DNA of 64,000 bases from Rhodoferax aquaticus (GTDB lineage Bacteria; Pseudomonadota; Gammaproteobacteria; Burkholderiales; Burkholderiaceae_C): assembly GCF_006974105.1 (NCBI RefSeq), contig NZ_CP036282.1:1674001-1738000 (forward strand), written 5' to 3'. Positions 5,720 to 61,590 of the stretch are shown here, piece by piece (positions within the stretch are counted from its first letter, which is position 1; each line of letters opens with the position of its first letter). The translations under genes were made by a program, and so were the position numbers. The notes under the pieces were generated by a model. It did no database searches and was not told where the DNA came from. It was given only the letters and a program-made list of their open reading frames with translations.

Positions 5720-6304
5720 TCAATCATTGACTGTGATGCGTTCAGCAAACAAAGACTCGGCATTTTTGGCTACTTGGATGGTGTCAAAGTAGGCGTAGGC
5801 GCCCACTCCAAGTGCACCTACCATAGGCACAAAGCGTGCTGCCCCTTTGCTCACTAGAGTCTGGGTGAGTTTGGCTCCCAACTGTTGGGCGATGGCCTGC
5901 AAGACCTTGCCAGACATCTGCTGAATGACGACGCGCTCTCCAATGCGGACTGCGACATCCCTGAACAACTGCGCAGACACGTGTTTGAAAAGACAGTACA
6001 GCATCTGTTCACGGCCCATGTTCTGCGAAGGCTGTCCGTAAACGGCGGCAATATCTGCCACCATTTGCGCTTGAATTTTCCAGACACCAATCAGCTCTGG
6101 CAGCACAGTCGCCCATCCAAGTAGACCTGGCGGCAACGATAGAGTACCCGCCAGCATGCTGGCTTTGCGGGCGGCGGCGCGCGCAATGGTGTGGGCGCGT
6201 GCTTGCGGGTTATCCGCAGTGGTTTCGTGGCTCGTGGGTACCGCCAGGACCAAGCTAAAGATGGCTTCTGGCAACGCTGATAGTGCAGACTCTGGCTTAG
6301 TCAT
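5720..6304 (-). CDS. EcsC-family protein
   Basis: A 194-residue protein rich in Ala/Gly/Leu that resembles the EcsC family: an N-terminal helical stretch, then PPGLLGWATVLPELIGVW, a central helical region and a C-terminal glycine-rich segment (VPMVGALGVGAYAYFDT). The function of this family is not well defined; in Bacillus EcsC accompanies an ABC exporter, which is absent here. Its start overlaps the end of the upstream exonuclease gene by 8 bp, indicating co-translation. Confidence 0.6.
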   Translation of the reverse strand: MTKPESALSALPEAIFSLVLAVPTSHETTADNPQARAHTIARAAARKASMLAGTLSLPPGLLGWATVLPELIGVWKIQAQMVADIAAVYGQPSQNMGREQMLYCLFKHVSAQLFRDVAVRIGERVVIQQMSGKVLQAIAQQLGAKLTQTLVSKGAARFVPMVGALGVGAYAYFDTIQVAKNAESLFAERITVND

Positions 6305-23842: not shown

Positions 23843-23891
23843 AAGCTTGGCATTGTAGGGTTAGGCAATCAGGTTTCGCATAAAATCCAAG

Positions 23892-24105
23892 GCGTTGGTG
23901 CTCGCGGTGTGGTTCGCATACCGCAGTTCAACGGGAAGCAGGAGGGAACGCGTTTACACGCCATCCTAACCTGCGCTGCCCCCGCAACGGTAAGTGGACG
24001 AGTTGTTTTTACTCTGCTTTCATCACAGCCACTGAGCATTTTGAACACATGCTTGGGAAGGCGATGAAGGTTGTTCCACCAGCCCGGATACCGGCCAACA
24101 AGGTG
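23892..24105 (+). promoter_or_regulatory. Cobalamin (AdoCbl) riboswitch upstream of cobB/cbiA
   Basis: Conserved cobalamin riboswitch elements appear in order: GGGAAGCAGG, then GGGAAC, the B12-box region GCTGCCCCCGCAACGG followed by TAAGTGG, GCCACTGAGC, CTTGGGAAGGCG and AGCCCGGATACCGGCC. It lies 120 nt upstream of cobB/cbiA on the same strand. It should repress the downstream cob/btu operon when adenosylcobalamin is abundant. A weak TAAAAT at 23881-23886 could be the promoter -10. Confidence 0.92.
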
Positions 24106-24225
24106 GACAGGTGCGCTGCACCCGTTCGTGTCGTTCGTGTTCTGGCGGGAAGGCCAGAGAGAACTTTGCGGTGTTGCGTGCATGAATCCCTGGAGGGGCT
24201 GTGCGCAAGCTGTCGATGATCGCTT

Positions 24226-25689
24226 ATGAGCCCCCAAACGCTGCCTTGCCCTGCGTTACTGATCACGGCCCCGTCTTCTGGACAGGGTAAGACGACGGTT
24301 ACGTCTGCTTTGGCACGCCTGCACACCCGTCAGGGCCGCCGCGTGCGGGTGTTCAAGTGCGGGCCGGATTTTCTGGACCCCTACTGGCACCAGCTGGCCA
24401 GCGGTGCACCGGTGTATCAGCTGGACCTGTGGATGACCGGCGAGGCCGATTGCCGCCAACGCCTATGGCGCGCCGCGCAAGAGGCAGACCTGATTTTGGT
24501 GGAAGGCGTGATGGGGCTTTTTGATGGCGACCCCTGCGCTGCCGATCTGGCTGAGCGCTTTGGTCTTCCGGTCATGGCGGTGATGGACTCTGGCTCCATG
24601 GCAGGCACCTTTGGCGCACTGGCTTACGGCCTGCAAACCTTCCGTCCCGGCTTGCGCTGGGCCGGCGCTTTAGCCAATCGTGTCGCCACCGAACGCCACG
24701 CGGCCATGCTGCAACGCAGCCTGCGCAGCGACAGCCCGTGGCTGGGCGCCGTGATGCGCAATGCCGCCATGAAGCTGCCTGAGCGCCATCTGGGGCTGAC
24801 AGTCGCCAGCGAGGTAGCCGATGCGCAAGCGCGCCTAGACGCCGCAGCTGACGCGATAGCGCAGACCCCATTAGGCCAAATGGGCTTGATAGACCTAAAG
24901 CAATGGTCCGTGGACTTCCACCCACCAGCGGAAGCGCCCAAAGGCGAGGCGACCAAGGGCTTTGCGCAGGTAAAGGAGGAGCCCGCAAAGCGGGCGGGGG
25001 ACACGGAGCAAAGCCCTTGGTCGTCTCACCGTCTTGCTGCGAAAGAACCATCGTTGCAAATCGGCTCGAACTTGATAGGCAAAACTATCGCAGTAGCCAG
25101 AGACGCCGCCTTCTGCTTCATCTACACCGCCAACCTCGACTGCTTGCGCGAACTGGGGGCGGAGCTGGTCTTTTTCTCGCCGCTTACAGACCACACATTG
25201 CCTGCTTGCGATGCGGTGTGGATTCCTGGCGGCTATCCCGAACTGCACGCTGCCACGCTGGCTGCCAATACAAGCATGCGAGATAGCCTTGCCGCCCATG
25301 CACAGGCTGGCAAGCCTGTATGGGCCGAGTGCGGCGGCATGATGGTTTTGTTTGACTCGATCTCCACCACGGACGGCGCGCAGCACCGCCTCTGGGGTTT
25401 GCTGCCCGGTGAAGTCACCATGCACAAACGCCTGTCCGCGCTAGGCCCACAACAACTGAAGCTCACATCCGGCACCCTGCGGGGCCACACCTTCCACTAC
25501 TCCACCAGCAGCAGCCCCTTGGTGCCAGTGGCCCGCACCGCGCGCCCCGACCACGACCCCATGCCCGACGCGGGTGAGGCCCTGTGGCAGCGTGGCTCCG
25601 TGCGGGCCAGCTACTTCCATGCTTGGTTCCCCTCCTGCCCCCAGGCCGTGGTGGAGTTGTTTTCACCTGCCCCAGAGGTGCGCGCATGA
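24226..25689 (+). CDS. cobB: Cobyrinate a,c-diamide synthase (CobB/CbiA)
   Basis: ATP- and glutamine-dependent amidation of carboxylates a and c of (hydrogeno)cobyrinic acid. The 487-residue protein has the N-terminal P-loop-like APSSGQGKTTVTSAL, CGPDFLDPYWH and EGVMGLFDG, and the C-terminal class I glutaminase domain with Cys in WAECGGMM and His in TFHYS. Between the domains, residues about 240-267 are encoded by a palindromic repeat inserted in frame (24946-25027). First gene after the riboswitch. A second amidase for this pathway, CobQ, is at 59720. Confidence 0.94.
   Translation: MSPQTLPCPALLITAPSSGQGKTTVTSALARLHTRQGRRVRVFKCGPDFLDPYWHQLASGAPVYQLDLWMTGEADCRQRLWRAAQEADLILVEGVMGLFDGDPCAADLAERFGLPVMAVMDSGSMAGTFGALAYGLQTFRPGLRWAGALANRVATERHAAMLQRSLRSDSPWLGAVMRNAAMKLPERHLGLTVASEVADAQARLDAAADAIAQTPLGQMGLIDLKQWSVDFHPPAEAPKGEATKGFAQVKEEPAKRAGDTEQSPWSSHRLAAKEPSLQIGSNLIGKTIAVARDAAFCFIYTANLDCLRELGAELVFFSPLTDHTLPACDAVWIPGGYPELHAATLAANTSMRDSLAAHAQAGKPVWAECGGMMVLFDSISTTDGAQHRLWGLLPGEVTMHKRLSALGPQQLKLTSGTLRGHTFHYSTSSSPLVPVARTARPDHDPMPDAGEALWQRGSVRASYFHAWFPSCPQAVVELFSPAPEVRA
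24946..25027 (+). repeat. Variable-arm palindromic element, copy A (in frame inside cobB)
   Basis: Arms at 24946-24965 and 25008-25027 are 20-nt inverted repeats with one mismatch (core GACCAAGGGCTTTGC). They enclose a conserved core containing GCAGGTAAAGGAGGAG, a CCCGC/CGGGC mini-hairpin, and GGGGGACACGGAGCAAAG. The core is nearly identical to copy B, but the outer arms are unrelated to those of copies B, C and D. Read through, it gives the peptide AQVKEEPAKRAGDTEQS. Confidence 0.85.
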
Positions 25690-26540
25690 CGCTTGATCTC
25701 TTGCACTTCGAGTCCGGCCCGCAGCGCATCGTCTGCCTCACAGAAGAGACCACCGAGTGGCTCTACCTCTTGGGTCAAGAGCATCGTATCGTTGGCATCT
25801 CGGGCTACACCGTGCGCCCCCGGCGCGCGCGGGACGAAAAGCCCAAGGTCAGCGCCTTTTTGAGCGCCAAGACCGACAAAATCATGGCGCTCAAGCCCGA
25901 CTGTGTGTTCGGTTTTTCCGACTTGCAGGCCGACATTGCGGCGGATCTGGTCAAACGCGGCGTGCAAGTCACCATCTTCAACCAGCGCAGTGTGGCCGAC
26001 ATTTTTTCCATGCTCTACCAAGTGGCCGCTATGGTCGGCGAGGCAGAGCAGGGCGCCCAGCGCATTGCCGAAATGCAGGCCAGTTTGCGTGCCATGCAGG
26101 CCACAGTGGCCGCCAAGGTGGCCGCCGGCGCACGCCGTCCTAACGTGTTTTTTGAAGAGTGGGACGAGCCCCACATCAGCGCGATCCGCTGGGTGTCTGA
26201 ATTGATGGGCATTGCGGGCGGTGACGATTGCTTTCCTGAGTTGGCGCAAGAGCCCATGGGCAAGCAGCGCATCATTGCCGATGGTGCCACTATCGTGCAG
26301 CGCGCACCCGACATCATTCTGGGCTCTTGGTGCGGCAAGAAATTCAGACCCGAGAAAGTGGCTGCCCGCGAAGGCTGGACTGAAGTACCCGCGGTGAGAG
26401 ACGGGCAGCTGTTTGAAATCAAGTCTGCCGACATTTTGCAACCCGGCCCCGCTGCGCTGACAGACGGCGTGCAGCAGATGCACCGCATCTTTATGCACTG
26501 GATGGACAAGGACGTAGCGTCACAAGGAGGTCGAGCATGA
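25686..26540 (+). CDS. BtuF-like cobalamin-binding protein lacking a signal peptide
   Basis: A 284-residue periplasmic-binding-fold protein of the PF01497 (FecB/BtuF) type: PQRIVCLTEETTEWLYLLGQ, IMALKPDCVFGFSDLQADIA, then the C-terminal lobe with LQPGPAALTDGV. Start ATG at 25686 overlaps the cobB stop by 4 nt (ATGA). Unlike the BtuF at 27268, it has no N-terminal hydrophobic signal and begins directly in the domain, so it is probably cytoplasmic. It lies between two cobalamin synthesis genes, so a corrinoid-binding role is inferred. Confidence 0.8.
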   Translation: MTLDLLHFESGPQRIVCLTEETTEWLYLLGQEHRIVGISGYTVRPRRARDEKPKVSAFLSAKTDKIMALKPDCVFGFSDLQADIAADLVKRGVQVTIFNQRSVADIFSMLYQVAAMVGEAEQGAQRIAEMQASLRAMQATVAAKVAAGARRPNVFFEEWDEPHISAIRWVSELMGIAGGDDCFPELAQEPMGKQRIIADGATIVQRAPDIILGSWCGKKFRPEKVAAREGWTEVPAVRDGQLFEIKSADILQPGPAALTDGVQQMHRIFMHWMDKDVASQGGRA

Positions 26541-27121
26541 CCGGCTTCACCATCGCCTGCAGCGAACTGATTTTGGGTGGCCAAAAAAGCGGCAAGTCCC
26601 GCCGGGCCGAGTTGCTCGCCCGCCAGTGGCTGGATGCGGCCCCCGGCCACCAAGCTGTGATGCTTGCCACCGCCCAGCCCTGGGATGATGAAATGCGCCA
26701 GCGCATTGCACGCCACCAGGCCGACCGGGCCGAGCGCGTGCCCGGCATGCGCACGGTGGAAGAACCCCTTGCGCTGGCTGAGGCGATTCGCCAGCACAGC
26801 AATACCCACACCCTGGTGGTGGTGGACTGCCTGACGCTGTGGCTCACCAATTGGCTAATGCCCGCGGAATCTGAGCAAAAAAGTGCTCCTGCGCACATGG
26901 ATGCTGCGCAGACAGCTTCTCTTTTGATAGCAATTCAAGAGGCTGCTGGCCCCGTGGTGTTGGTGGGCAATGAGATTGGGCTGGGTGTGATCCCCATGGG
27001 GCGCGAGGTACGCGCTTTTGTAGACGCTTTGGGTCGATTGAACCAAGACGTGGCGGCGGTGTGCGAGCGCGTGACGCTGATGGCGGCGGGCCTGCCACTG
27101 GCTTTGAAGAGCGCTGGCTGA
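26537..27121 (+). CDS. cobU: Adenosylcobinamide kinase / adenosylcobinamide-phosphate guanylyltransferase
   Basis: Converts adenosylcobinamide to AdoCbi-phosphate and then AdoCbi-GDP (CobU/CobP). The 194-residue protein has the P-loop LILGGQKSGKSRRAE, the active-site histidine in ARHQADRAERVP, VVDCLTLWLTNWL and VLVGNEIGLGVIPMGREVR. Residues about 113-132 are encoded by a family R repeat between the WL and NEIG blocks. 4-nt overlap with the preceding gene. Confidence 0.94.
   Translation: MTGFTIACSELILGGQKSGKSRRAELLARQWLDAAPGHQAVMLATAQPWDDEMRQRIARHQADRAERVPGMRTVEEPLALAEAIRQHSNTHTLVVVDCLTLWLTNWLMPAESEQKSAPAHMDAAQTASLLIAIQEAAGPVVLVGNEIGLGVIPMGREVRAFVDALGRLNQDVAAVCERVTLMAAGLPLALKSAG
26875..26932 (-). 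repeat. Small dispersed repeat, family R (copy 3, in frame inside cobU)
   Basis: On the minus strand: TGCTATCAAAAGAG, AAGCTGTCTGCGC, AGCATCCATGTGCGC, AGGAGCAC and a T-run. This is one of the best matches to the family pattern. It adds a 19-20 residue loop to CobU without disrupting the reading frame. Confidence 0.6.
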
Positions 27122-27162
27122 TGCTGTTCTTCAACTTCCTTCACCTGCACATGAGCACCTAT

Positions 27163-27256
27163 GCACGTAGAGTGTCTGGGCGATTTGCGCAGGTAAAGGA
27201 GGAGCCCGCGCAGCGGGCGGGGGACACGGAGCAAAGCGCTCGGACACTCTACGTGC
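27163..27256 (+). repeat. Variable-arm palindromic element, copy B (cobU-btuF gap)
   Basis: Perfect 14-nt arms GCACGTAGAGTGTC (27163-27176) and GACACTCTACGTGC (27243-27256) enclose a core almost identical to copy A (GCGCAGGTAAAGGAGGAG, CCCGC-GCAG-CGGGC, GGGGGACACGGAGCAAAG). Core differences from copy A are confined to the mini-hairpin loop (AAAG versus GCAG). The arms share no similarity with copy A. It occupies the space between the cobU stop and the btuF start. Confidence 0.88.
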
Positions 27257-27267
27257 GTGCGCCACAG

Positions 27268-28167
27268 ATGCCGTCAGCAACCACATGGATGCATCGCCTG
27301 CTGGTAGGGCTGACGATGATGTGCCTGCTTCCTCTTTCAGCCCACGCGCTGCAGCTCACCGACGACCGGGGCGGGAGCATCACGCTGCCTGCTGCGCCGC
27401 AGCGCATTGTGAGTTTGCTGCCCTCGCTCACCGAGACGGTGTGCGAACTGGGCTACTGCAACCGCCTGGTGGGCGTGGACCGCTACTCCACCTACCCCGC
27501 GAGCCTGCAAAAGCTGCCGCAAGTGGGCGGGGGCTTAGACCCGAACATTGAAATGATCGTGGCCCTGCAACCCGATGTGGTGCTCATGGCCAAGTCCTCA
27601 CGCGCGGGCGAGCGGCTGGAGGCATTGGGCATCAAGGTAGTTGCCCTAGAACCCAAGACGCATGCCGATGTGCAGCGGGTGATGCTCAAAATCGGCCAGC
27701 TGCTAGAAGCGCCAGACGCCCAGCGTATCTGGCGTGCGATTGATGCCGGTGTGTCGGCTGCGGCACAGTCGCTGCCCGCTACCTCACGCGGCGCTCGGGT
27801 CTACTTTGAGGTAAACGAGGGGCCCTATGCGGCGGGCGAGTCCTCCTTCATTGGCGAAACACTCACCCGCTTGGGCGCTAAAAACATAGTTGCCGCCCAA
27901 CTGGGCCCGTTCCCCAAACTCAACCCTGAATTCATCGTGCGTGCCAACCCCGATGTGATTCTGATCGGCCAACGCAGTGCAGCTGCCTTGATGGCACGCC
28001 CGGGTTGGCAAACCATGCGCGCGGTGCGTGAAAACCGTGTGTGTATCTTCCCGCTAGAGGAGGCCAACGTACTGGTGCGCCCGGGCCCGCGCATGGCTGA
28101 GGCCGCCCGCATCATGGCGCAGTGCTTGGCCAGCAAGTCGCCCAAAAGCGCTGGGGGCAAGCCGTGA
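27268..28167 (+). CDS. btuF: Periplasmic cobalamin-binding protein BtuF
   Basis: Solute-binding component of a vitamin B12 ABC importer. The 299-residue protein has a signal peptide (RLLVGLTMMCLLPLSAHA), then LQLTDDRGGSITLPAAPQRI, VSLLPSLTETVCELGYCNRL and QPDVVLMAKSSRAGERLEALG, typical of BtuF. The open frame continues upstream through repeat copy B; ATG 27268 is the first start after it, and ATG 27289 is an alternative. It is followed with overlapping starts by the permease and ATPase. Confidence 0.88.
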   Translation: MPSATTWMHRLLVGLTMMCLLPLSAHALQLTDDRGGSITLPAAPQRIVSLLPSLTETVCELGYCNRLVGVDRYSTYPASLQKLPQVGGGLDPNIEMIVALQPDVVLMAKSSRAGERLEALGIKVVALEPKTHADVQRVMLKIGQLLEAPDAQRIWRAIDAGVSAAAQSLPATSRGARVYFEVNEGPYAAGESSFIGETLTRLGAKNIVAAQLGPFPKLNPEFIVRANPDVILIGQRSAAALMARPGWQTMRAVRENRVCIFPLEEANVLVRPGPRMAEAARIMAQCLASKSPKSAGGKP

Positions 28168-29252
28168 ACAAGCCATTGGTGCTTGTGTGGACACTGGCCG
28201 GTGTGCTGGCAGCGTTGGTGCTGCTGGCCGTGGGCGTGTGCGTGGGCAGCACCGGGTTTGAGAACCTGCTCGGCCCCTTGCTGCACCCGGCGCAAGACCC
28301 CGTGCAAACTGCCATGGCCCAGCAAATCGTCTGGCAAATCCGCCTGCCGCGCACGGCAGGGGCTTGGGCTGCAGGTGCTTTGCTAGGGCTCGCTGGGGCG
28401 GTGGCGCAAGGCTTGTTTCGCAACCCGCTGGCCGACCCCTACTTGCTGGGCAGTGCGTCTGGTGCATCCCTAGGGGTTGCATTGGCGCTCGCGGCATTGG
28501 GCGGCGGTGCCGGCATGTTGAGTGGCAGCAGTGCCGGCAGCATGATGAATGGGGGCATGGCACTGAGTGTGTTTTCCAGCAGCGTGTGGGTGCGCATAGG
28601 TTTGACCGGGGCCGCCTTTTTGGGCGCGGTGGTGGCGGTGCTGCTGACGCTGCTGCTCTCCAAAGGCGTGGGCCATACCTTGCGCCTGCTTTTGGCCGGC
28701 GTGGTGGTGGGCGTGGTGCTGGGCGCCATGACGCATTTGGTGCTGCTCTTCACGCCTGACTCGTTGCAGGCCATGCAGGCCTTTATGTTGGGGTCTACCG
28801 CCTTTGTGGGCTGGACCTCATGCTGGCTGATGGCAGGCGTGTGGGCGGTGTGCGTGTTGGCCGCGTGGCTGCTGGCGCGCGTGCTTGACGGGCTGAGCCT
28901 GGGTGACGCTACGGCAGTGAGCCTGGGTCTGCCGGTCGCCCCCATGCGCGCGGCGCTGGTGGCGGTGCTGGCGCTGGCCACGGGCACGGCGGTTGCCCAG
29001 ACGGGGCTGATCGCCTTTGTTGGCTTGGCTGCGCCCCACTTGGTGCGCTCTGTCATCAAGACTACCCACGCGCATTTGATGCTGCTCTCCAGCCTAGTTG
29101 GGGGCGTGCTCCTGATGGCGGCCGACACCTTGGCGCGTGGACTGCTGGCCCCGCAAGAGTTGCCCGTGGGCGTGCTCACGGCGGTGTTGGGTGGCGGCTA
29201 TCTGCTGTGGCTCATGCACCGTGGCACCCGGTCTGGCGGAGGCGCGCTATGA
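28164..29252 (+). CDS. btuC: FecCD-family permease BtuC
   Basis: Membrane component of the B12 importer. The 362-residue polytopic protein has FecCD features: RLPRTAGAWAAGALLGLAGA, QGLFRNPLADPYLLGSASGA, and near the C terminus GLIAFVGLAAPHLVRSVI and LAPQELPVGVLTAVLGG. Start GTG at 28164 overlaps the btuF stop (GTGA); a longer ATG option at 28122 lies within btuF and adds no homology. Confidence 0.92.
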   Translation: MNKPLVLVWTLAGVLAALVLLAVGVCVGSTGFENLLGPLLHPAQDPVQTAMAQQIVWQIRLPRTAGAWAAGALLGLAGAVAQGLFRNPLADPYLLGSASGASLGVALALAALGGGAGMLSGSSAGSMMNGGMALSVFSSSVWVRIGLTGAAFLGAVVAVLLTLLLSKGVGHTLRLLLAGVVVGVVLGAMTHLVLLFTPDSLQAMQAFMLGSTAFVGWTSCWLMAGVWAVCVLAAWLLARVLDGLSLGDATAVSLGLPVAPMRAALVAVLALATGTAVAQTGLIAFVGLAAPHLVRSVIKTTHAHLMLLSSLVGGVLLMAADTLARGLLAPQELPVGVLTAVLGGGYLLWLMHRGTRSGGGAL

Positions 29253-30064
29253 CTGGGCTAGACACTATTAAAAACATAGCGATCTGCGCCCATTCCATCA
29301 GCGCAAACCTCGGAAATGGCCTTGCTAAGCAGCAGGTGCTGCATGGTGTGTCGCTAGACATTGCCGCCGGGCAGTGGACCAGCATCGTAGGCCCCAATGG
29401 CGCAGGCAAGTCCACCTTGTTGCGCTGTTTGGCAGGCGTGTTGCCGCACAGTGGCACGGTGTCGCTGTTCGGCCAGCCGCTGCAGAATTTGCCAAACCGC
29501 GAGCGCGCCCGCCAACTGGCCTGGCTGGGCCAAAACGAAGCCTCTGCCGATGACTTGACCGTGTGGGACGTGGCCATGCTTGGCCGCCTGCCGCACCAAG
29601 CGTGGCTGGCTCCGCCTAGCAGTGCTGACCATGCTGCGGTAGAGCAGGCCCTGCGCGCAACCCAAGCCTGGGAGTGGCGCAGCCGCCCCCTAGGCCATTT
29701 GAGCGGTGGCGAACGCCAACGTGTGCTGCTAGCACGCGCCTTGGCGGTGCAAGCCCAAGTGTTGCTGATGGACGAACCCTTGGCCAACCTAGACCCGCCC
29801 CACCAAGCCGACTGGCTGGCCGTAGTGCAAGCGCTGGTGGCGCAGGGCAGCACGGTGGTCAGCGTGCTGCATGAAATCAGCATGGCCCTGCACGCAGACC
29901 GCATGGTGGTCATGGCGCAGGGGCGTGTGACCCACCACGGCGCAAGCAATGATGCGTCTACCCATGCCGCAGTGGCCGAAGTGTTTGAGCACCGCATTGC
30001 CATCCATGCCCTGGCGGGACAGTGGGTGGCACTGCCGATAATGCGAAGGGAGACAACACGCTGA
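29249..30064 (+). CDS. btuD: ABC transporter ATP-binding protein BtuD
   Basis: ATPase of the B12 importer. The 271-residue protein has Walker A GPNGAGKST, Q-loop WLGQNEAS, signature LSGGERQRV, Walker B VLLMDEPLANLD and H-loop VLHE. ATG at 29249 overlaps the btuC stop (ATGA). Residues about 5-24 come from a family R repeat at the extreme 5' end, so the first beta-strand region is unusual. Confidence 0.92.
   Translation: MTGLDTIKNIAICAHSISANLGNGLAKQQVLHGVSLDIAAGQWTSIVGPNGAGKSTLLRCLAGVLPHSGTVSLFGQPLQNLPNRERARQLAWLGQNEASADDLTVWDVAMLGRLPHQAWLAPPSSADHAAVEQALRATQAWEWRSRPLGHLSGGERQRVLLARALAVQAQVLLMDEPLANLDPPHQADWLAVVQALVAQGSTVVSVLHEISMALHADRMVVMAQGRVTHHGASNDASTHAAVAEVFEHRIAIHALAGQWVALPIMRRETTR
29263..29321 (+). 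repeat. Small dispersed repeat, family R (copy 4, 5' end of btuD)
   Basis: ACTATTAAAAACATAGC, ATCTGCGC, CCATTCCATCAGCGC and CGGAAATGGCC follow the family order. It lies in frame 14 nt inside btuD. Confidence 0.55.
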
Positions 30065-30145
30065 AACGCCACATAGAAACGCTATTACCCCTTTGCCGAA
30101 TTTTGTTAGTCATCGGATAGTTATTTTTTACCAAGGAGCAACCTC

Positions 30146-30823
30146 ATGCACATCGAACCCGGACTGGTCGACACCACCAAAATCTTCCTGAGCTACGCCA
30201 CCGCTACCACGGCCGCCCTGTACGCCACCAAGCTGGCGGTGGATGCGGTTAAGAAAGACGGCCCCTCGGCCTTGATCGCCCGCGCTTTGCTATGCGTGGG
30301 CTTGGTGTTTTGCTTCTTTGAACTCATGCCGCACCATCCCGTGGGCGTCTCTGAAGTGCACTTGATCTTGGGCACCACCTTGATGCTGATCTTCGGCGTA
30401 GCGCCCGCCGCTATTGGCCTCATGGGCGGCTTGCTGATCCAGAGCCTGTTTTTCGCGCAGCAAGACTTGCCCCAGTACGGCATGAATGTCACCACCTTGC
30501 TGGTGCCCTTGTTCGCTACCGCCGCTTTGGCGCGCCGCATCGTGCCTGAGAACGTGGCCTATGTGGACCTGACGTACCAACAAGCCTTCAAGCTGTCGGC
30601 AGCCTACCAGGGTGGCATCGTGGCATGGGTGGCTTTTTGGGCCATCTACGGCCGCGGCGTGGGCATGGAAAACATGGGCCAGATCGCGACCTTCGGCGCT
30701 GCCTACATGACCGTGGTGTTGGTGGAGCCTCTGGTGGACTTGGGTGTGTTGGCCGCTGCCAAGGCCCTGCGTCGCTTGCAAGGCAGCCCGCTGATCAACC
30801 AGCGCGTGTACTCCGCTGCTTAA
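30146..30823 (+). CDS. CbiM-like cobalt/nickel ECF transporter permease (stand-alone)
   Basis: A 225-residue polytopic protein starting MHIEPGLVD, like the MHI start of CbiM whose His2 takes part in Co/Ni binding. Hydrophobic segments include HLILGTTLMLIFGVAPAAIG and GLMGGLLIQSLFFAQQ. No CbiN, CbiQ or CbiO partner lies beside it. AAGGAG precedes the ATG. Placement before cobO and the chelatase genes suggests cobalt supply. The family call is moderately certain; a CbtA/CbtC-type protein is the main alternative. Confidence 0.65.
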   Translation: MHIEPGLVDTTKIFLSYATATTAALYATKLAVDAVKKDGPSALIARALLCVGLVFCFFELMPHHPVGVSEVHLILGTTLMLIFGVAPAAIGLMGGLLIQSLFFAQQDLPQYGMNVTTLLVPLFATAALARRIVPENVAYVDLTYQQAFKLSAAYQGGIVAWVAFWAIYGRGVGMENMGQIATFGAAYMTVVLVEPLVDLGVLAAAKALRRLQGSPLINQRVYSAA

Positions 30824-30850
30824 GCATCTAGCTCGTTAAAGGACTGTTTT

Positions 30851-31420
30851 GTGGATTTGATCGCCCCCCCTGTAGACCGAGACACGCCACGCCCACAAGG
30901 CGAGCGGCGTGGTTTGATATTGGTGCACACCGGCACTGGCAAAGGCAAAAGCACGGCCGCCTTTGGGCTGGCCCTGCGCGCCCATGGCCGGGGCAAGGCG
31001 GTCAAGGTCTACCAGTTCATGAAAGTGCCCTCGGCGCGTTTTGGCGAGCACCGCCTGTTCGAGCAGCTGGGCATTCCCATTACGGGCTTGGGTGATGGCT
31101 TCACTTGGAAGAGCAAAGACCTGGACCACTCCGCCGAGCTGGCCCAAGCAGGCTGGGAGCAAGCCAAGGCCACGGTGATGGCGGGAGAGCACTTCATGGT
31201 GGTGCTGGATGAAATCATGTACCCCCTGCGCTACGGCTGGATTCCGCTAGAGAGCATTCTGTCCTGCCTGCGCGAGCGTCCGCCGCATGTGCATGTGGTG
31301 CTGACCGGCCGCAATGCGCCCGCCGAGCTGATCGAGCTGGCCGACACCGTGACCGAGATGACCATGATCAAGCACCACTTCAAAGCCGGTGTGCCCGCAC
31401 AGCGCGGCATTGAAGACTGA
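30851..31420 (+). CDS. cobO: Cob(I)yrinic acid a,c-diamide adenosyltransferase
   Basis: Attaches the upper adenosyl ligand to Co(I) corrinoids. The 189-residue CobO/BtuR-type protein has the phosphate-binding loop HTGTGKGKSTAAFGLALRA, VYQFMKVPSARFGEH, VVLDEIMYPL and VVLTGRNAPAELIELADTVTEM. GTG start at 30851 is preceded by AAAGGA. Confidence 0.94.
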   Translation: MDLIAPPVDRDTPRPQGERRGLILVHTGTGKGKSTAAFGLALRAHGRGKAVKVYQFMKVPSARFGEHRLFEQLGIPITGLGDGFTWKSKDLDHSAELAQAGWEQAKATVMAGEHFMVVLDEIMYPLRYGWIPLESILSCLRERPPHVHVVLTGRNAPAELIELADTVTEMTMIKHHFKAGVPAQRGIED

Positions 31421-31435
31421 TTGCGCTGCCGAGCC

Positions 31436-32299
31436 ATGTTTACCGCCTTGCCCCCCATCCCACTTCCGGCCCAGCCAGAGCTGCAGCTTGACAACGCATC
31501 GCTGCTGCGCCAAGGCAAGCGGGTGGTGAACAGCGTGAGCCTGACCGTGCCCTTTGGTGCCCATGTAGCGCTGGTGGGGCCCAACGGTTCGGGCAAAACG
31601 ACCTTGCTGCAGGTCATGGCGGGCCGCCTGGCACCTAGCCAAGGGCGTGTCTTGATCGGCGGCGTGGACCTTGCCCGTCTGTCAGGTAACCAGCGCGCGC
31701 AACAGATAGCGGTTGTGCACCAGCATGAGCAGGTGCACGGCCAACTGCGGGTGCGCGACTATGTGGCTTTGGGGCGCACGCCCCATGCGCAAGTCAGCCA
31801 CGACGAGAGCGCCGCAGTGGTGAGCCGCGCGGTGCAGCGCTGCCGCCTGCAGCCGCTGCTTGACCGGCCCATGCGCACGCTCTCCGGCGGCGAGCAACAG
31901 CGCGCCGCCATTGCACGGGCTTTGGCACAAGAGCCGCGCATTCTTTTGCTCGACGAGCCCACCAACCACCTGGACCTGCGCACCCGCGCCGACATGCTGG
32001 ACTTGCTCACCGAACTCGGTGTGACGGTGATCGCCGCCTTGCATGAGTTGAGCTTGGTGCAGCGCTTTGCCCACCGGGTGGTCGTGCTGGGCGAGGGCCG
32101 TGTGGTGGCCCAGGGCGAGCCATCCCAAGTGCTCACGCAAGAGTTGGTGCACGGCCACTTTGGCATGGATGTTTTTTACTTACCCTTGCCCCACCGTGAG
32201 CAAGACATTGCGGTGTTTGAGTCACCCCAAACGGCCAAGGGCGCTGACAGTGTGCCTCGCGCCACCGTGCGCGAGCCAGTGGCCGAAACGCTGGCGTAA
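31436..32299 (+). CDS. ABC transporter ATP-binding protein (FecE/HmuV type, second importer)
   Basis: A 287-residue ATPase with Walker A GPNGSGKTT, Q-loop VVHQHEQVHG, signature LSGGEQQRAA, Walker B ILLLDEPTNHLD and H-loop ALHE. ATG 31436 is preferred to a TTG at 31421. Gene order ATPase, binding protein, permease differs from the btuFCD set at 27-30 kb. The substrate is unknown; heme, a siderophore or a corrinoid/cobalt chelate are possible. Confidence 0.88.
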   Translation: MFTALPPIPLPAQPELQLDNASLLRQGKRVVNSVSLTVPFGAHVALVGPNGSGKTTLLQVMAGRLAPSQGRVLIGGVDLARLSGNQRAQQIAVVHQHEQVHGQLRVRDYVALGRTPHAQVSHDESAAVVSRAVQRCRLQPLLDRPMRTLSGGEQQRAAIARALAQEPRILLLDEPTNHLDLRTRADMLDLLTELGVTVIAALHELSLVQRFAHRVVVLGEGRVVAQGEPSQVLTQELVHGHFGMDVFYLPLPHREQDIAVFESPQTAKGADSVPRATVREPVAETLA

Positions 32300-32342
32300 G
32301 GCGCAAGCCCATTCACCCATCTTTGTTTTTTTGAACCTTGAA

Positions 32343-33329
32343 ATGAAAAGTTACCGTATGCCCTTTTGTGCCAATCAAAAAATGCCCGCCTTGCCCCGTG
32401 TGTTAGTGGCCGCCTTGGCGCTGTGCGCCAGCAGCGTGTTTGCACAAACCTTTCCAGTCACCGTGGACAGCTGCGGTGAGAAGCTCACGTTTACTGCTCC
32501 ACCCAAGGCCGCATTGGTCCATGACATCAACATGACCGAAATGGCGCTGGCGCTGGGCTTGCAAAAAAACATGGTGGGTGTGAGTGGCATCACCGGCTGG
32601 TACAAGATGAGCCCTGAGTTCAGGCTGGCCTTGGGCAACATCAAAGAAATTGCGCCCAAGCAACCCACGATGGAAAACATTCTGGCCGCCAACCCCGACT
32701 TTTTCTTTGCTGGTTGGAACTACGGTATGAAGGTGGGCGGTGACGTTACCCCCAGCACCTTGCAGAAGTACAAAATCCCCACCCTGGTCTTGAGCGAAAG
32801 CTGCATCCATGTGGACAAAAACCGCCCCCGCGCCAGCATGGACTTGCTGTACACCGACTTCATCAAGCTAGGCACTATTTTTGGCAAAGAAGCCACTGCC
32901 AAGGCCCAGGTCGCGGAGTGGAAGCAGCGTCTAGCTCGCCTGCCCAAAGCCAGCGGCAAAGAAGCCACGCGCATGTTCTTGTTTGACTCAGGCGAAGACA
33001 AGCCCTTTACGGCGGGCAAGTACGCCATCCCCACCGCCATGATGGAGGCCGTGGGCGGCCGCAACATCATGGACGATGTGGAAACCAGCTGGGGCACCGT
33101 GGCCTGGGAAGCCGTGGCCGCGCGCAACCCCGAGTTCTTGGTGCTGCTGGACTACCAAAACGATGGCGGTGCCGACAAGCTCCTGCAGTTCTTGCAAAAG
33201 CACCCGCTCATGCAGCACACCGATGCCGTGAAGAACAAGCGCTTTGTGGCCCTGCGCTATGAAGAGCTCACCCCCGGCCCCGCCAACATTGGCGCGATCG
33301 AGAAGATGGCCAAGGCAGCCGCCCGTTGA
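32343..33329 (+). CDS. ABC transporter periplasmic substrate-binding protein (second importer)
   Basis: A 328-residue PF01497-type binding protein with a signal peptide (RVLVAALALCASSVFA), mature start QTFPVTVDSCGEKLTF, INMTEMALALGLQKNMVGVS and a C-terminal VPLRYE-like segment (RFVALRYEELTPGP). Several in-frame ATGs (32343, 32358, 32382) could start it; 32343 is the first in the intergenic region. It pairs with the flanking ATPase and permease genes. The ligand cannot be read from sequence. Confidence 0.85.
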   Translation: MKSYRMPFCANQKMPALPRVLVAALALCASSVFAQTFPVTVDSCGEKLTFTAPPKAALVHDINMTEMALALGLQKNMVGVSGITGWYKMSPEFRLALGNIKEIAPKQPTMENILAANPDFFFAGWNYGMKVGGDVTPSTLQKYKIPTLVLSESCIHVDKNRPRASMDLLYTDFIKLGTIFGKEATAKAQVAEWKQRLARLPKASGKEATRMFLFDSGEDKPFTAGKYAIPTAMMEAVGGRNIMDDVETSWGTVAWEAVAARNPEFLVLLDYQNDGGADKLLQFLQKHPLMQHTDAVKNKRFVALRYEELTPGPANIGAIEKMAKAAAR

Positions 33330-33343
33330 TCGCAACTTCCGCC

Positions 33344-34387
33344 ATGTCTACCGCTGTGCACCGTTGGCGAGCGCTGGGCCCCGTGTCGCTGCACGTGGCC
33401 TTGCTGCTGGCGCTGCTGGCCGTGGTAGGCATGGTCTCGGTGGTGTCAGGGTCTACGCCGGTGCGCTTGGCAGAAGTAGCCCGCAGCTTGGGCCTGTTGT
33501 TGTCTGGCGCGGATGACAGCCGCTACACCATGGTCGACCGCATCGTGGTCGACCTGCGCCTGCCGCGCATGGTGCTGGCCATTGTGGTCGGCGGGGGCTT
33601 GGCCGTAGTCGGCGCCTTGTTGCAAACAGCCACGCGCAACGACTTATCAGACCCTTATCTTTTTGGCTTGTCCTCGGGCTCGGCAGCGGGTGCCGTGGCC
33701 GTCATCACCCTCACCGGCGAAGTGCTGGGGCTGTGGACCCTGCCATTGGCTGCTTTTGTGGGGGGCATGGCATCTGTGGGCGTGGTGTTGCTCTTGCTGC
33801 GTCGCTACCGCAGCCACACGCCAGAGCGCATGATTTTGGCGGGCCTGTCGGTCTCGTTTTTGTTCACGGCGCTGACCTATTACTTCACGTTTTTGGGTGA
33901 CCAACGGGCTGCGCAATCGGTGCTGTTTTGGACCATGGGCGGCCTGGGCTCCGCGCGCTGGGACAACCTATTTGTGCCCTTGGCTGGGCTGCTTGCATTG
34001 GCAGTGTTTTGCTGGCGCAATCTGGGCGCGCTAGATGCCATGCTGGGTGGCGAGAACACCGCCCACAGCCTGGGCATTGACCCACAGCGCTTGCGCATCC
34101 AGGCCTTTGTGGTGTGTGCCTTTGCCACCGCTTGCTTTGTGGCGGTCTCGGGCGTCATTGGCTTTGTGGGGCTCATGGTGCCGCACCTAGCGCGTGCAGC
34201 CGCAGGTGCCTTGCACCGTGGCATGTTGGTCTTGGCCGTGCTGATGGGCGCATTGCTTTTGCTCTTGAGCGACGTGGTGTGCCGCACCGTGCTTGCGCCC
34301 CAGGAGCTGCCGGTCGGCATCATCACCGCCAGCGTAGGTGCTTTGTTTGTGATGTACACCTTGCTCAACCAGCCTGACCCAGCCTAG
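33344..34387 (+). CDS. FecCD-family ABC transporter permease (second importer)
   Basis: A 347-residue polytopic permease with RLPRMVLAIVVGGGLAVVGALL minus ends, NDLSDPYLFGLSSGSAAGA, VIGFVGLMVPHLARAAAG and LAPQELPVGIITASVGA. ATG 33344 is preferred; a TTG at 33326 overlapping the upstream stop is possible. The conserved NPLADP-type loop reads NDLSDP. Confidence 0.9.
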   Translation: MSTAVHRWRALGPVSLHVALLLALLAVVGMVSVVSGSTPVRLAEVARSLGLLLSGADDSRYTMVDRIVVDLRLPRMVLAIVVGGGLAVVGALLQTATRNDLSDPYLFGLSSGSAAGAVAVITLTGEVLGLWTLPLAAFVGGMASVGVVLLLLRRYRSHTPERMILAGLSVSFLFTALTYYFTFLGDQRAAQSVLFWTMGGLGSARWDNLFVPLAGLLALAVFCWRNLGALDAMLGGENTAHSLGIDPQRLRIQAFVVCAFATACFVAVSGVIGFVGLMVPHLARAAAGALHRGMLVLAVLMGALLLLLSDVVCRTVLAPQELPVGIITASVGALFVMYTLLNQPDPA

Positions 34388-34439
34388 GCCAGCCCTTTTT
34401 TGAATTGCTTTACCTCTTTTTGTTTGAAAGCTTGAACCC

Positions 34440-35486
34440 ATGCAAACCCGCAAAATCCCCGCCACCATCGTTACCGGCTTTTTAGGCAGCGGCAAAACCA
34501 CGCTCTTGCGCAAGCTGCTCACCAACGCCCAAGGCCGCCGCATTGCCGTCATCGTCAACGAGTTTGGCGAGCTGGGCATTGACGGCGAGTTGCTGCGCGG
34601 CTGCGGCATCGGCTGTGACGAAAACGGTGAAGAAAATGGCCAGCTGTACGAGTTGGCCAACGGCTGCTTGTGCTGCACCGTGCAAGAGGAGTTTGCCCCG
34701 GTCATGGAGCAGCTGGCCGCCCGCCGCGACCAGATCGACTACCTGGTCATCGAGACCTCGGGCTTGGCGCTGCCGAAACCCTTGGTGCAAGCCTTCCAGT
34801 GGCCTTCGCTGCGCAACACATTTACCGTGGACTCGGTCATCACCGTGGTGGACGCACCCGCAGTCGCCGCTGGTGACTTTGCGGACGACCCGGTGGCGGT
34901 AGATGCCCAGCGCCGCGCGGACGATAACCTCGACCATGACTCGCCCTTGCACGAGCTGTTTGAAGACCAGCTGGCCACGGCCGACCTGGTCATCGTGCAC
35001 AAGGTAGAAGGTATGGACGCCGCAGCGCTAGAGGCCGTGGAAGCCACTATTCGCCATGAGGCCCCAGCTGGCGTGAAGCTGGTGCGTGCTTCGCATGGTG
35101 ATGTACCCCTGGACGTGTTGCTGGGGCTGGAGCGTGCGGTGGAAGACGTGATTGACGACCGCAAAACCCACCACGACGAAGAAGAAGACCACGACCACGA
35201 CGCCTTCGATTCAGTTTCCTTAACCCTTCAAGTCACCGACCGCGCCAAGTTGATTCCGGCCCTCACCGCGCTGGTGCAGCGCCATGAAATTTATCGCGTC
35301 AAAGGCTTCGTGTCTTTGCCCGGTGCAGCCATGCGTTTGGTGGTGCAGGGTGTGGGGCAGCGCTTTGACAGCTACTTTGATCGCGCTTGGCGTGCCGATG
35401 AAACTCGCGCTACCCGTTTGGTGTTCATTGGGGATCACCTCGATGCCGCTGTGTTGCAGGCTGAAGTGCAGGCTGCTTTGGCATAG
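34440..35486 (+). CDS. cobW: CobW-family GTP-binding metallochaperone
   Basis: G3E GTPase associated with cobalt delivery to the CobN chelatase. The 348-residue protein has Walker A GFLGSGKTT, the metal-binding GCLCC motif, and a His/Asp-rich stretch (HHDEEEDHDHD) at about residues 243-253, then a CobW C-terminal domain. The usual GTPase NKxD box reads HKVE here. It directly precedes cobN, separated by a 372-nt repeat-filled gap. Confidence 0.92.
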   Translation: MQTRKIPATIVTGFLGSGKTTLLRKLLTNAQGRRIAVIVNEFGELGIDGELLRGCGIGCDENGEENGQLYELANGCLCCTVQEEFAPVMEQLAARRDQIDYLVIETSGLALPKPLVQAFQWPSLRNTFTVDSVITVVDAPAVAAGDFADDPVAVDAQRRADDNLDHDSPLHELFEDQLATADLVIVHKVEGMDAAALEAVEATIRHEAPAGVKLVRASHGDVPLDVLLGLERAVEDVIDDRKTHHDEEEDHDHDAFDSVSLTLQVTDRAKLIPALTALVQRHEIYRVKGFVSLPGAAMRLVVQGVGQRFDSYFDRAWRADETRATRLVFIGDHLDAAVLQAEVQAALA

Positions 35487-35520
35487 CTTGTATGGGCACT
35501 GCTTTCGCACAGGGTTGGTG

Positions 35521-35586
35521 GGCGCAGGCCGACTCCCGCTTTGGGTGGGCACAGGTCGACTCCCGCTTTGGGTGGCGCAGGCCGAC
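35521..35586 (+). repeat. Short tandem repeat, 27-bp unit, about 2.4 copies
   Basis: GACTCCCGCTTTGGGTGG occurs at 35531-35548 and 35558-35575, inside 27-bp units beginning GGCGCAGGCC and GGCACAGGTC. A partial third unit runs into palindromic element copy C. It lies in the cobW-cobN gap. Confidence 0.8.
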
Positions 35587-35665
35587 GGGGTACTCTGCTC
35601 CGCGGCTGTCCTCCGCCCTGCGGGCTCCCCCTTTATGCCGCTGCGCAGAGCACCCCATCGACCTG
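35578..35665 (-). repeat. Variable-arm palindromic element, copy C
   Basis: Arms 35578-35598 and 35645-35665 are 21-nt inverted repeats whose three mismatches are all compatible with G-U pairing (arm CAGGYCGAYGGGGTRCTCTGC). Read on the minus strand the core is GCGCAGCGGCATAAAGGGGG, AGCCCGC, GGCGGAGGACA and CGGAGC, a diverged form of the A/B core. The arm is unrelated to those of A, B and D. Confidence 0.75.
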
Positions 35666-35716
35666 CGCTGGCGGCGGGCTTGCATGCTAATTGGTGGAGA
35701 ACCCTCTACGTTGGAT

Positions 35717-35821
35717 GCTGGCGAGGGTGGGGTGGATGGCGCAGCGGAATAAAGGGGGAGCAGTCGGCCCTAGGCCGCTGCGGAGGACATCCGCGGAGCT
35801 ATTCACCCCGCCCTCACCAGC
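35717..35821 (+). repeat. Variable-arm palindromic element, copy D (inverted relative to C)
   Basis: An arm beginning GCTGGCGAGGGTGGGGTGG pairs with CACCCCGCCCTCACCAGC, with a few wobble or mismatch positions. The core reads GCGCAGCGGAATAAAGGGGG, AGC, an AGTCGGCCCTAGGCCGCT mini-hairpin, then GCGGAGGACAT and CGGAGC. Together with copy C it makes a large inverted repeat with about 92 nt between the cores. Nothing coding is recognised in 35487-35858. Confidence 0.7.
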
Positions 35822-35858
35822 CCGCCACAACCAACCTCAATACGTGAATTAAACAACT

Positions 35859-38800
35859 ATGCACCTACTCTCCACCCGCCCCGGCGGCCATGTCGAAGAC
35901 GATGGCAATGGCATCGTGCGCGTGGAGCAAACGCCGGGTGACATCGTGGTGCTCACCGTGGCGGACACTACCTTGTCGCTCTTGGCCGAGGTGGCCAGCA
36001 ACCTGCCCGCCGATTTTCCGACCGTGCGCCTGGCCAACCTGATGTGGCTGCGCCAGCCCGCGTCCACCGACTTGTACATGGACGATGTACTGCGCCACGC
36101 CAAGGCCATCGTCATCGAACACTTGGGTGCCCCCAGCGACTGGGCCTACATCGTCGACCAAGTGTGTGAGTCGGCGAAAGCGCGCGGCCAGTGGCTGGTC
36201 ATGGTGTCGGGCGAGTGTGTGGAAGACGCGCAGCTGCTGTTGCGCAGCACCGCCGCCAAAGACGACTGCACCCACCTGTGGCGCTGCCTGCGCGAAGGCG
36301 GGCGCGACAACGCCAACAACTTCTACCAGCTGATTGCCCATGCCGCCTTTGGCCGTGGCGAGCGGCCTGCGCCTGCGCAGGTGCTGCCCGGTGCGGTGCG
36401 CTACGAGCCCTTGACTCAAGTAGCCCCGTGGCGAGAAGGTGCCCCCGTGGCGCTGCTGGTGTTTTACAAAGCCCACTTGCAGGCCGGCAACACCGCCGCG
36501 TTTGATGCCATGCTGGCCGCCCTGTCAGAGCAGGGCCTCAACACCATGGCGCTGGCGCTGGACTCGCTCAAAAACCCAGAGAGCATGGCGCTGCTGCAGA
36601 CCATGGCGCGCGAGCACAAAGTCGATGTGGTGCTCAACGCCACCAGCTTTGCCGTGGGCTCCATCGATGGCAACGACAGCGGTGCCGAGGTACAGCCGGT
36701 GCTGCTGGCGGGGGATGCGCCGGTGCTGCAGCTCATCACCGCCGGTTGCTCGCAAGAGCAGTGGCAAGACGACCCGCACGGCCTCACCCCGCGCGACCTC
36801 GCCATGCAAATCGTGCTGCCGGAGGTGGATGGCCGCATTGGCACCCGGCCCATCAGCTTCAAAGGCCTGGCCTGGCGCTGCGAGCGCGCCGAGATTGACG
36901 TGGTGCGCTACCAGCCTGAGACCGAGCGCATGGCCTATGTGGCCGCTCTCGCCCGCCGATGGTGCGCATTGCGCTATAAAAACAATAGTGAAAAGCGCGT
37001 GGCGTTGGTGCTGGCCAACTACCCGAATGACGACTCGCGGCTCGCCAACGGCGTGGGGCTGGACACGCCTGCCTCCACCGTGGTCATCCTGCAAGCCCTG
37101 CAAGCCGCAGGTTATGCCACCGGCGATGTGCCGGCGGACAGCGACGCCCTGATGGCTGACCTGACGCGCGGCATCACCAACAACCTGGACGCGAACGACT
37201 CCCGCCCTGTGGGGCAGAGCCTCGCCATGGCTGACTATTTGCAAGACTTCCACGCGCTGCCCGCCGAGAGCCAAGCCGCCATCAACGCGCGGTGGGGCCT
37301 GCCAGAGCAGGACCCGCTGGTGCGCCATGGCCGCTTCATGATTTCCGGTCAGCGCTACGGCAACGTGTTTGTGGGCAACCAGCCCGCCCGTGGCCGCGAC
37401 TTGGACCTGGTCGCCACCTACCACGATGCCGATTTGGTGCCCACGCACAACTACCTCGCCTTCTACTTCTGGATGCGCCGCGCCTACGCGGTGGATGCCG
37501 TGGTGCATGTGGGCAAGCACGGCAATCTAGAGTGGCTGCCCGGCAAAAGCGTGGCGCTGGGCGCGGCCTGCTGGCCCGACGCCATCCTGGGCCCGCTGCC
37601 GCACCTGTACCCCTTTATCGTGAACGACCCGGGCGAGGGCGCGCAGGCCAAGCGCCGCACGCAGGCCGTCATCATCGACCACCTCATGCCCGCGATGACG
37701 CGGGCCGAAACCTATGGCCCCCTGCAGCAGCTCGAAGGCCGTATGGACGAGTATTACGAAGCCCTGTCGCTCGACCCGCGCCGCGCCAAGCTGCTGCGCG
37801 GCAGCATTCTGGAGCAGGTGCTGGCCGATGGCTTGCACATCGAGCTGGGCTTTACCAAACCTGCCGACGATGCTGAGCGCGAAGCGCTGCTGCGCCGCTT
37901 GGACGCTTACCTGTGCGAGATCAAAGAATCCCAAATCCGCGACGGCCTGCACACCTTCGGCCAGTCGCCCGCCGGCCGCCAGCGGGTAGACACGCTGGTG
38001 GCGCTGGCCCGCTACCCCGGTGGCTCGGGTGCGGCACAGGCCAGCCTCACGGTGGCGCTGGCGCAAGACCTGGGCCTGACAGACTTTGACGCCCTGAGCC
38101 CCGACTGGGCTGCCCCCTGGACCGGCGCGCGCCCCGCCGTGTTGCAAGCCCTGAGCGATGACGCTTGGCGTCACGCCGGCCACACCCGCGAGCGGGTGGA
38201 ACTGCTGGCCACCCGCGTGGTGCAAGACATGCTGTTCGAGCAAGTTAACTCCGATCGCCCTGAGCTTGTCGAAGGGCTTCGACAGGCTCAGCCCGAACGG
38301 GAAGGGTTTCTCACAGAAGGGCCGTCACAGGAACCAGAACGTTGGCCCCACACCTCCCAAGTGCTGCAGCGCCTGCAAACGGTGCTGGCTCCGCGCCTCG
38401 ATGCCTGTGGCCCCAACGAAATCACCCAGCTGCTGCGCGGGCTCGATGGCCGCTTTATCCCGCCCGGCCCCAGCGGCGCGCCCTCGCGTGGTCGGCCCGA
38501 TGTACTGCCCACCGGGCGCAACTTTTACTCGGTGGACACGCGCGCCATCCCCACCCAAACCGCCTATGCCATGGGCGCCAAGGGCGCAGACCGCGTGGTC
38601 GAGCGCCACCTGCAAGACCATGGCGCTTACCCCACGGCCATGGGCCTCTCCGTGTGGGGCACCAGCACCATGCGCACCGGCGGTGAAGACGTGGCCCAGG
38701 CCTTCTCGCTCTTGGGCGTGCGGCCCAAGTGGGCAGCGGGCAGCAACCGCGTGACGGACATTGAAGTCATGCCCATGACCGTGCTGGGCCGTCCGCGCGT

Positions 38801-61318: not shown

Positions 61319-61367
61319 GGAGGCTCGCTCCCCGTAATTCCGCTACGCGGCGCTGCTATCATCCACG

Positions 61368-61530
61368 GCTTCAGGTGCCTCTTGCTACGGCTTGGGGAGA
61401 ATCGGGAAGACGGTGTGAATCCGTCGCGTGCCCAACGCTGTAAGGATGATGACCCGCGCTCTATGCCACTGGCCGCCAAGGCCGGGAAGGCGCGTCGGGC
61501 CAGGTGATTCCGAGCCAGAAGACCGGCCTG
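61368..61530 (+). promoter_or_regulatory. Cobalamin riboswitch upstream of cobT
   Basis: Ordered motifs TTCAGGTGCC, GGGGAGAATCGGGAAG, CGGTGTGAATCCG, GCCCAACGCTGTAAGG, TGCCACTGG, GGCCGGGAAGGCG and ATTCCGAGCCAGAAGACCGG match the cobalamin riboswitch. It begins about 50 nt after cobQ and ends 60 nt before cobT, so it should control cobT-cobS and the phosphatase separately from cobQ. A TATCAT at 61357-61362 might be a -10 box. Confidence 0.93.
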
Positions 61531-61590
61531 ATGGTGTTTATGCACAGCAAGGCCGGGCTGTGCTTCTTTGATTCAGCACAGGGGAATGCC

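Follow-up and report, generated by a model that had tools for sequence, protein, structure and literature searches.

Rickettsia palindromic elements (RPE) are palindromic repeats that lie in frame inside protein-coding genes. Other bacterial palindromes are associated with RAYT transposases; these repetitive extragenic palindromic (REP) sequences form persistent inverted doublets (REPINs), and single copies are the remains of doublets (PMC3116915, PMC8049555). CGTC-tagged REPs are described with a CGTC-type tag, a stem of 8-9 bp and a loop of 4-5 nt, and the terminal inverted repeats (TIRs) of TIRYT genes with the motif GGGGWSAS (PMC3733652). A further family, the betaproteobacterial repeat element (BRE), is described as a repeat of about 90 bp in Betaproteobacteria, intergenic and intragenic, with 4 copies in Rhodoferax ferrireducens and 29 in Polaromonas JS666; in Bordetella its copies are tandem and highly conserved in sequence, and the repeat region yields transcripts of about 80 and 200 nt (PMC3110155). 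Here, we analyze four palindromic elements, copies A to D, in a stretch of 64,000 nucleotides from Rhodoferax aquaticus (contig NZ_CP036282.1, positions 1,674,001 to 1,738,000; hereafter the window), together with their relatives in other genomes. In these elements the stem of about 25 bp is kept far more for pairing than for sequence, and, in contrast to REPINs, the conserved part is the tip and not the ends. By a modest balance of probability we regard them as old REPIN-like paired palindromes that are kept as folded single strands for a trans-acting factor.

Each hairpin unit measures about 100 nt. The tip core (TMAAGGRGGAG, a mini-hairpin and GGRGGACA) is 23-44 nt long and stands above a 3x3 internal loop of GCA/GGA type, with a neck between loop and core that is either a single pair (short-neck type S, 32 copies) or five positions (long-neck type M, 137 copies), giving 169 typed copies among 205 regular-expression (regex) matches. 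Across the typed copies, pairing in the outer stem extends over about 25 bp before declining toward background, and the first 20 stem pairs comprise 2936 Watson-Crick, 302 G.T, 32 A.C and 110 other combinations, such that 3238 of 3380 cells (96%) are Watson-Crick or G.T; stem position 6 is G in 31 of the 32 and 113 of the 137. In an alignment of 60 copies, 92.2% of pair cells pair versus 38-40% when the arms are slid, and 670 double-change cells, spread over 36 of 37 pairs, compare with 145-165 slid, figures that are flattering because the copies were picked best-paired first after de-duplication (45 of 70 plus 15 of 15), and whose covariation controls are inflated by shared ancestry. The mini-hairpin in this alignment also varies with compensation. 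The two R positions of the core covary (A..G 149, G..A 21, A..A 3, G..G 2) in a set of 175 copies that required an arm score of at least 27, a threshold that excluded 30 of the 205 regex matches, 19 of them viral and 11 from genomes. The first-pass annotation, which described arms of 14-24 nt around a constant core, was thus right about the pairing and about the presence of the core; the stems are longer than it stated, and parts of the core vary together.

Within the window, TAAAGGRGGAG with at most one mismatch has four matches, a number reached in 0 of 100 shuffles. Arm-pairing scores of 40, 49, 51 and 46 for copies A to D stand against a 99th percentile of 27 at 6000 random window positions, seven of which score at least 38 (maximum 49), where some of the high-scoring positions may adjoin the elements themselves. 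The four places originally reported and the self-complementarity of each copy are therefore both borne out, and a covariance model, a search proposed by the same annotation, defines the extent of each. Copy A (24938..25035, plus strand; model match G000:C1:1698938-1699035, where G000 is the genome of R. aquaticus) carries its core at 24971..25003 on the plus strand as TAAAGGAGGAG, the mini-hairpin and GGGGGACA. By Pfam and by a translation that stays open across the element, it lies inside a cobB/cbiA-type gene (open reading frame (ORF) 24226-25689) and is read in frame, as the linker between a CbiA domain (aa 12-189) and a GATase_3 domain (aa 287-468). Copy B (27161..27258, plus strand; G000:C1:1701161-1701258; core 27194..27226, plus strand) is situated after a cobU-type gene (26537-27121; CobU by Pfam) and ahead of the next conserved coding stretch. 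A CobW-type gene (34440-35486) and a cobN-type gene (35859-39725), both assigned by Pfam, enclose copies C and D, which make up a '- +' pair and both have the G..A variant of the core. The left member, copy C (35571..35672, minus strand; G000:C1:1709571-1709672), has its core at 35607..35635 on the minus strand (TAAAGGGGGAG ... GGAGGACA); the right member, copy D (35713..35825, plus strand; G000:C1:1709713-1709825; core 35750..35789, plus strand), has a longer mini-hairpin.

Evidence for structural constraint also comes from sites that could be followed through the genus. Five sites were compared (A, B, C/D, L001 and L007), with 30 loci per site and 15 for C/D, and elements were located there, as around the transposase genes considered below, with a home-made regex plus an arm score. 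This script finds an element at 19 of 30 loci for A, 17 of 30 for L007 (where it missed at least two, in L346 and L349, that are seen by eye), 10 of 30 for L001, 3 of 15 for C/D and 16 of 30 for B, the last count including L211 and L212, which really lie upstream and are also counted as B in the 81-row arm comparison. Mean arm identity is 0.688 for the same site and same member (at least 80% in 74 of 310 comparisons), 0.629 for the same site and the other member (30 of 309), 0.599 within a genome (4 of 79) and 0.595 between different sites and genomes (77 of 1772). The earlier statement that arms of different copies share no sequence is accordingly too strong, since stem positions have a weak consensus and same-site copies are more alike. 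At site A, 97.2% of pairs are maintained in 19 species. Double-change cells number 79 there, compared with 7-16 after sliding and an average of 18 in shuffles, and parsimony on the gene-flank tree requires 86 or more pair-state changes among 22 pairs along with five or more changes of orientation. All 30 linker segments at this site translate without a stop, including the 19 that carry an element, in both orientations; in one of them, L247, the gap of 268 is not a multiple of three, which is an alignment-edge effect (264 in the other reading), and the translation is open.

The first-pass annotation had suggested either selection for a long hairpin or a mobility process that builds an inverted copy of flanking DNA. 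Selection is favored by the heavy compensatory change at an orthologous site, together with the strand-specific preference for G.T over A.C discussed below. Insertion that gives every copy new arms copied from its flank would suit the weak similarity between arms of different loci (60% mean identity), but arms at a site are common to several species, are partly shared between sites, and differ through compensated substitutions; elements located elsewhere in other species match copy A, arms included (93% over 76 nt in one example). Further, the proposal that one arm might be found in an empty site fails for the eight empty C/D alleles (10-40 nt, of 15 loci), which by eye hold neither arm, and we consider this explanation scarcely credible. 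No duplicated flank was seen in the alleles read by eye. None of the sites followed yielded a clearly recent insertion that has an empty sister, and the insertion step itself was therefore not observed.

Wobble pairs carry information about which strand is folded. Counted on the core-bearing strand, the first 20 stem pairs show the 302 G.T and 32 A.C given above, an excess inflated at stem positions 0-13 by a typing score that ranked G.T above A.C; positions 14-19 lie outside the typing stretch, and because of this scoring they are the clean part of the test, with 82 G.T versus 17 A.C. This bias suggests that the folded core-bearing strand is the selected form. Hairpin-templated repair or template switching that copies one arm onto the other, with arms drifting yet staying complementary and no selection involved, would yield near-perfect pairing with free sequence, as observed, but it offers no reason for the excess of G.T at these unscored positions and leaves the conservation of the core beside a saturated spacer unexplained; we judge it quite improbable. 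Among 166 copies, G.T:A.C is 49:3 in the 25 that share the direction of both flanking genes and 53:2 in the 20 that oppose both, and copies antisense to the cobB-type gene give 18:2. That the bias is the same in sense and antisense copies argues for single-stranded DNA or an extruded form rather than host mRNA. Thus, the most likely target of selection is the core-bearing strand in its folded state, not host mRNA; the strand data suit single-stranded DNA or a cruciform, and a transcript of the element's own may also be possible.

The same observations bear on an RNA element, in which the core-bearing strand would be transcribed and fold as a small RNA, an mRNA stabilizer or a protein sponge, with selection on the transcript. 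A one-sided preference for G.T (G-U) pairs and covarying core purines suit RNA too, copies inside called genes lean sense (15 to 6), and the Bordetella transcripts would be pertinent if BRE is related. However, orientation to the two neighbors is near random (26, 25, 25 and 23 among 99 copies with both neighbors called, by a home-made ORF caller that, for 55 of 175 copies, called no gene on one or both sides), antisense copies show the bias equally, and by eye the conserved pair at L007 lies beyond two terminator-like hairpins, between two apparent convergent intrinsic terminators. In nine species the L007 cores are 90% identical and the arms 65-80%, with an inner spacer at 0.63 identity versus 0.60 when shuffled; this spacer is not conserved, and therefore no shared promoter is seen. 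Taken together, these data make an RNA element unlikely.

Paired organization is a further regular feature. Neighboring copies within 250 bp are arranged '- +' in 32 cases, '- -' in two and '+ -' in none, and the cores of 26 of the 32 '- +' pairs are 106-127 bp apart. Three alleles of the L001 site that have only a '-' copy (L363, L365 and L366) keep, by eye, an apparent right arm of a lost '+' copy, and at least some single copies are therefore remains of pairs. A second repeat family has the same architecture, with the core CGATTTGTGGTACCCCACCATGAGG, long variable paired arms and three '- +' pairs (copies at L342:1999-2023 and 2203-2227; L350:2434-2458 and 2708-2732; L351:1345-1369; L356:1168-1192 and 1341-1365), and in other species it occupies an intergenic position at or close to one where the present family occurs. 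Two copies of the present family stand 1.75 kb apart at L094; a composite transposon there was rejected because the translations of the intervening ORFs, read without a family search, are unlike transposase genes.

Genomes differ in the second base of the core. TAAAGG:TCAAGG counts are 0:26, 0:26, 1:25 and 1:22 in the C-type genomes G001, G004, G034 and G005, and 32:2, 27:1, 12:0 and 20:0 in the A-type genomes G007, G014, G003 and G008, with mixed genomes such as R. aquaticus (9:9) and G044 (25:27). When each copy is removed from its own genome's count, core position 2 at the five sites follows the genome type, being A in 26 of 28 copies from A-type genomes and C in 19 of 25 from C-type genomes; 28 further copies lie in mixed genomes. 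At C/D, the arms of the '-' copy are nearly the same in G000, G007 and G021, and TCAAGG occurs only in the C-type G021. Since the core shifts in parallel while the arms stay, a trans-acting reader appears the best explanation, while gene conversion confined to the tip may also account for the shift. A more specific proposal, that these are a genome-wide set of structure-only repeats read by a single-strand hairpin-binding factor, is possible and is put forward tentatively. TA-AAGG and TC-AAGG lineages would have factors of different specificity, and the copies at orthologous sites, translated in-gene copies included, would have changed in parallel to match.

How, then, do the elements relate to the described systems? 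They resemble REPINs in being short palindromic repeats that form inverted doublets at a set spacing, lie between genes and persist. They differ in a stem that is much longer and free in sequence, in having no linked Y1 gene at 64 loci, and in showing no GTAG/GTGG-type tag at the stem ends, where positions 20-29 hold at most 0.95 bits (short-neck) or 0.54 bits (long-neck) and no invariant tetranucleotide. Because tag and transposase linkage were both tested and neither was found, we do not class them as REPINs. Compared with CGTC-tagged REPs, they have a stem of about 25 bp and a core of 23-44 nt. The TIR repeats of TIRYT genes (Stenotrophomonas ORF1152 type) are likewise self-complementary and close together, and GGGGWSAS fits GGGGACAC of the short-neck type, whereas the long-neck type mostly reads GGGGACAT, and none of the 64 loci has a Y1 gene flanked by elements. 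In-gene copies read in frame, as at site A, recall RPE, but the host group is another one, no shared sequence is shown, and the in-gene copies occur in both orientations.

BRE is a different case, compared here by description only; it is the likeliest candidate for a prior description of these elements and could be the same family. Length, host group and placement between and within genes are similar (PMC3110155). The stricter view that the elements simply are BRE, known but not analyzed structurally, is rather unlikely: the Bordetella copies are described there as tandem and conserved in sequence, whereas ours are inverted pairs with variable arms, and no Bordetella is found among the named records with the exact core that are listed (80 of at least 119 stretches). 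These include Rhodoferax, Variovorax, Hydrogenophaga, Ramlibacter, Rubrivivax, Ideonella, Sulfurisoma, Oxalobacteraceae, Stenotrophomonas and Lysobacteraceae; a mislabeled or mixed assembly probably accounts for the records titled Bacillus subtilis SK7B5 (L076, L108).

The exact core pattern finds nine copies in the 4.74 Mb R. aquaticus genome. The covariance model, made from 60 copies, finds 18, including all four in the window, in a scan that was limited to 150 of 892 candidates and passed over a TCAAGG copy at 1654372; as the pattern listing adds this copy, the genome holds at least 19. Among 103 congeneric genomes, 82 have the TAAAGG pattern and 42 the TCAAGG pattern, and a reversed control pattern is found in none; G024, G064 and G088 are examples of genomes that lack both patterns. 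Of 398 genomes drawn from the phylum, 11 have model matches at E 1e-6, seven of them among the 12 listed from the same family (R. aquaticus included) and four from one other family of the same class, apparently the one that includes the genome of L102 ([Pseudomonas] hibiscicola); under strict filters, with at most nine candidates scored per genome and counts that are therefore lower bounds, no further family gave a match. The family is mostly chromosomal. Three Variovorax plasmid records of 1.2-1.3 Mb match one query and none matches copy A, and no phage was found with copy A, in both cases by BLAST, which is weak on such diverged elements; 25 stretches of viral contigs match the regex, of which 21 could be scored, and paired arms are absent from 19 of these.

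We can now weigh the reading of these elements as old REPIN-like palindromes kept as folded single strands. The unit would be a tip core on a paired stem of free sequence, often in an inverted '- +' pair; the folded core-bearing strand, as single-stranded DNA or in extruded form, would be what is selected; a trans-acting factor probably recognizes the core, to judge from its genome-by-genome change at orthologous sites; and past spread by a mobile process is probable, with mainly vertical inheritance and piecemeal loss now. Several points weigh against this reading, beyond the scoring preference, the choice of well-paired copies, the inflated controls and the sense lean already mentioned. The removal of 30 regex matches by arm score is one, and a few of the copies kept (L079, for example) may be chance. 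Many C-type genomes are close relatives, and few independent core shifts are needed. Single copies have no overall leading- or lagging-strand bias (31:31 over four genomes, uneven by genome at 8:14, 10:4, 4:10 and 9:3); a role at the fork might have produced one, and replication-strand bias was rejected on this count. The close relatives G010, G011, G015 and G020 (L264, L252, L266 and L254) have two unrelated site A alleles in opposite orientation, a distribution not neatly explained by vertical descent alone, which may have arisen through gene exchange or through loss of members from an old pair.

The search for a mobilizer or reader adds to these points, as no factor or transposase for the elements was found. 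Y1_Tnp has a match in 96 of the 103 congeneric genomes, mostly in one gene of about 240 aa; the single PF01797 match of R. aquaticus (G000:C1:999747-1000034; L283:3015-3719) is in a Y1 transposase-like gene of 234 aa that has matches in most congeneric genomes and is unlinked to the elements. Linkage to RAYT genes, which the first-pass annotation had thought worth looking for, or to TIRYT genes was rejected, as 0 of 64 Y1 loci have an element within about 1.5-3 kb on each side where the contig allows (three are the same place twice; the genomes of L053, a Stenotrophomonas, and of L102 are included). In a set of 27 genomes selected because they carry elements, eight lack a PF01797 match; several are drafts, and the genome of L086 has only a regex match at a contig edge, but G309 is a complete genome with at least nine elements. 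In Rfam, copies A and B have no match at E up to 5, the whole window at gathering scores contains only two riboswitches and two tRNAs, and four other loci give 19 matches, all below gathering score, mostly of microRNA type and likely due to chance. A literature search by sequence letters, with figures and supplements outside the search, returned no relevant paper among the matches listed.

A few observations concern the surroundings of the elements. Two cobalamin riboswitches (window 23879-24113 and 61356-61545) flank the B12 gene cluster that contains the four copies, and 4 of at least 19 genome copies within 64 kb is an apparent local excess. Beside copy C, at 35520-35590 of the window, two to three GGYGCAGGCCGACTCCCGCTTTGGGT-like pieces, each about 36 bp long and arranged in tandem, seem by eye to be copies of its outer arm. 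Elements at L211:77-109 (G044) and L212:2269-2301 (G039) are apparently inside the cobU gene, and the length of the G039 insertion looks, from match coordinates, like a multiple of three.

Bacterial palindromic repeats are usually defined by conserved sequence; in the family described here pairing is conserved and the stem sequence is free, and many copies will escape searches based on identity. Translated in either orientation, the element at the cobB-type site provides a natural test of how structural constraint acts on DNA within a gene. The free stem, the strand-specific wobble bias and the genome-specific core offer a direct route to the factor that keeps such repeats.

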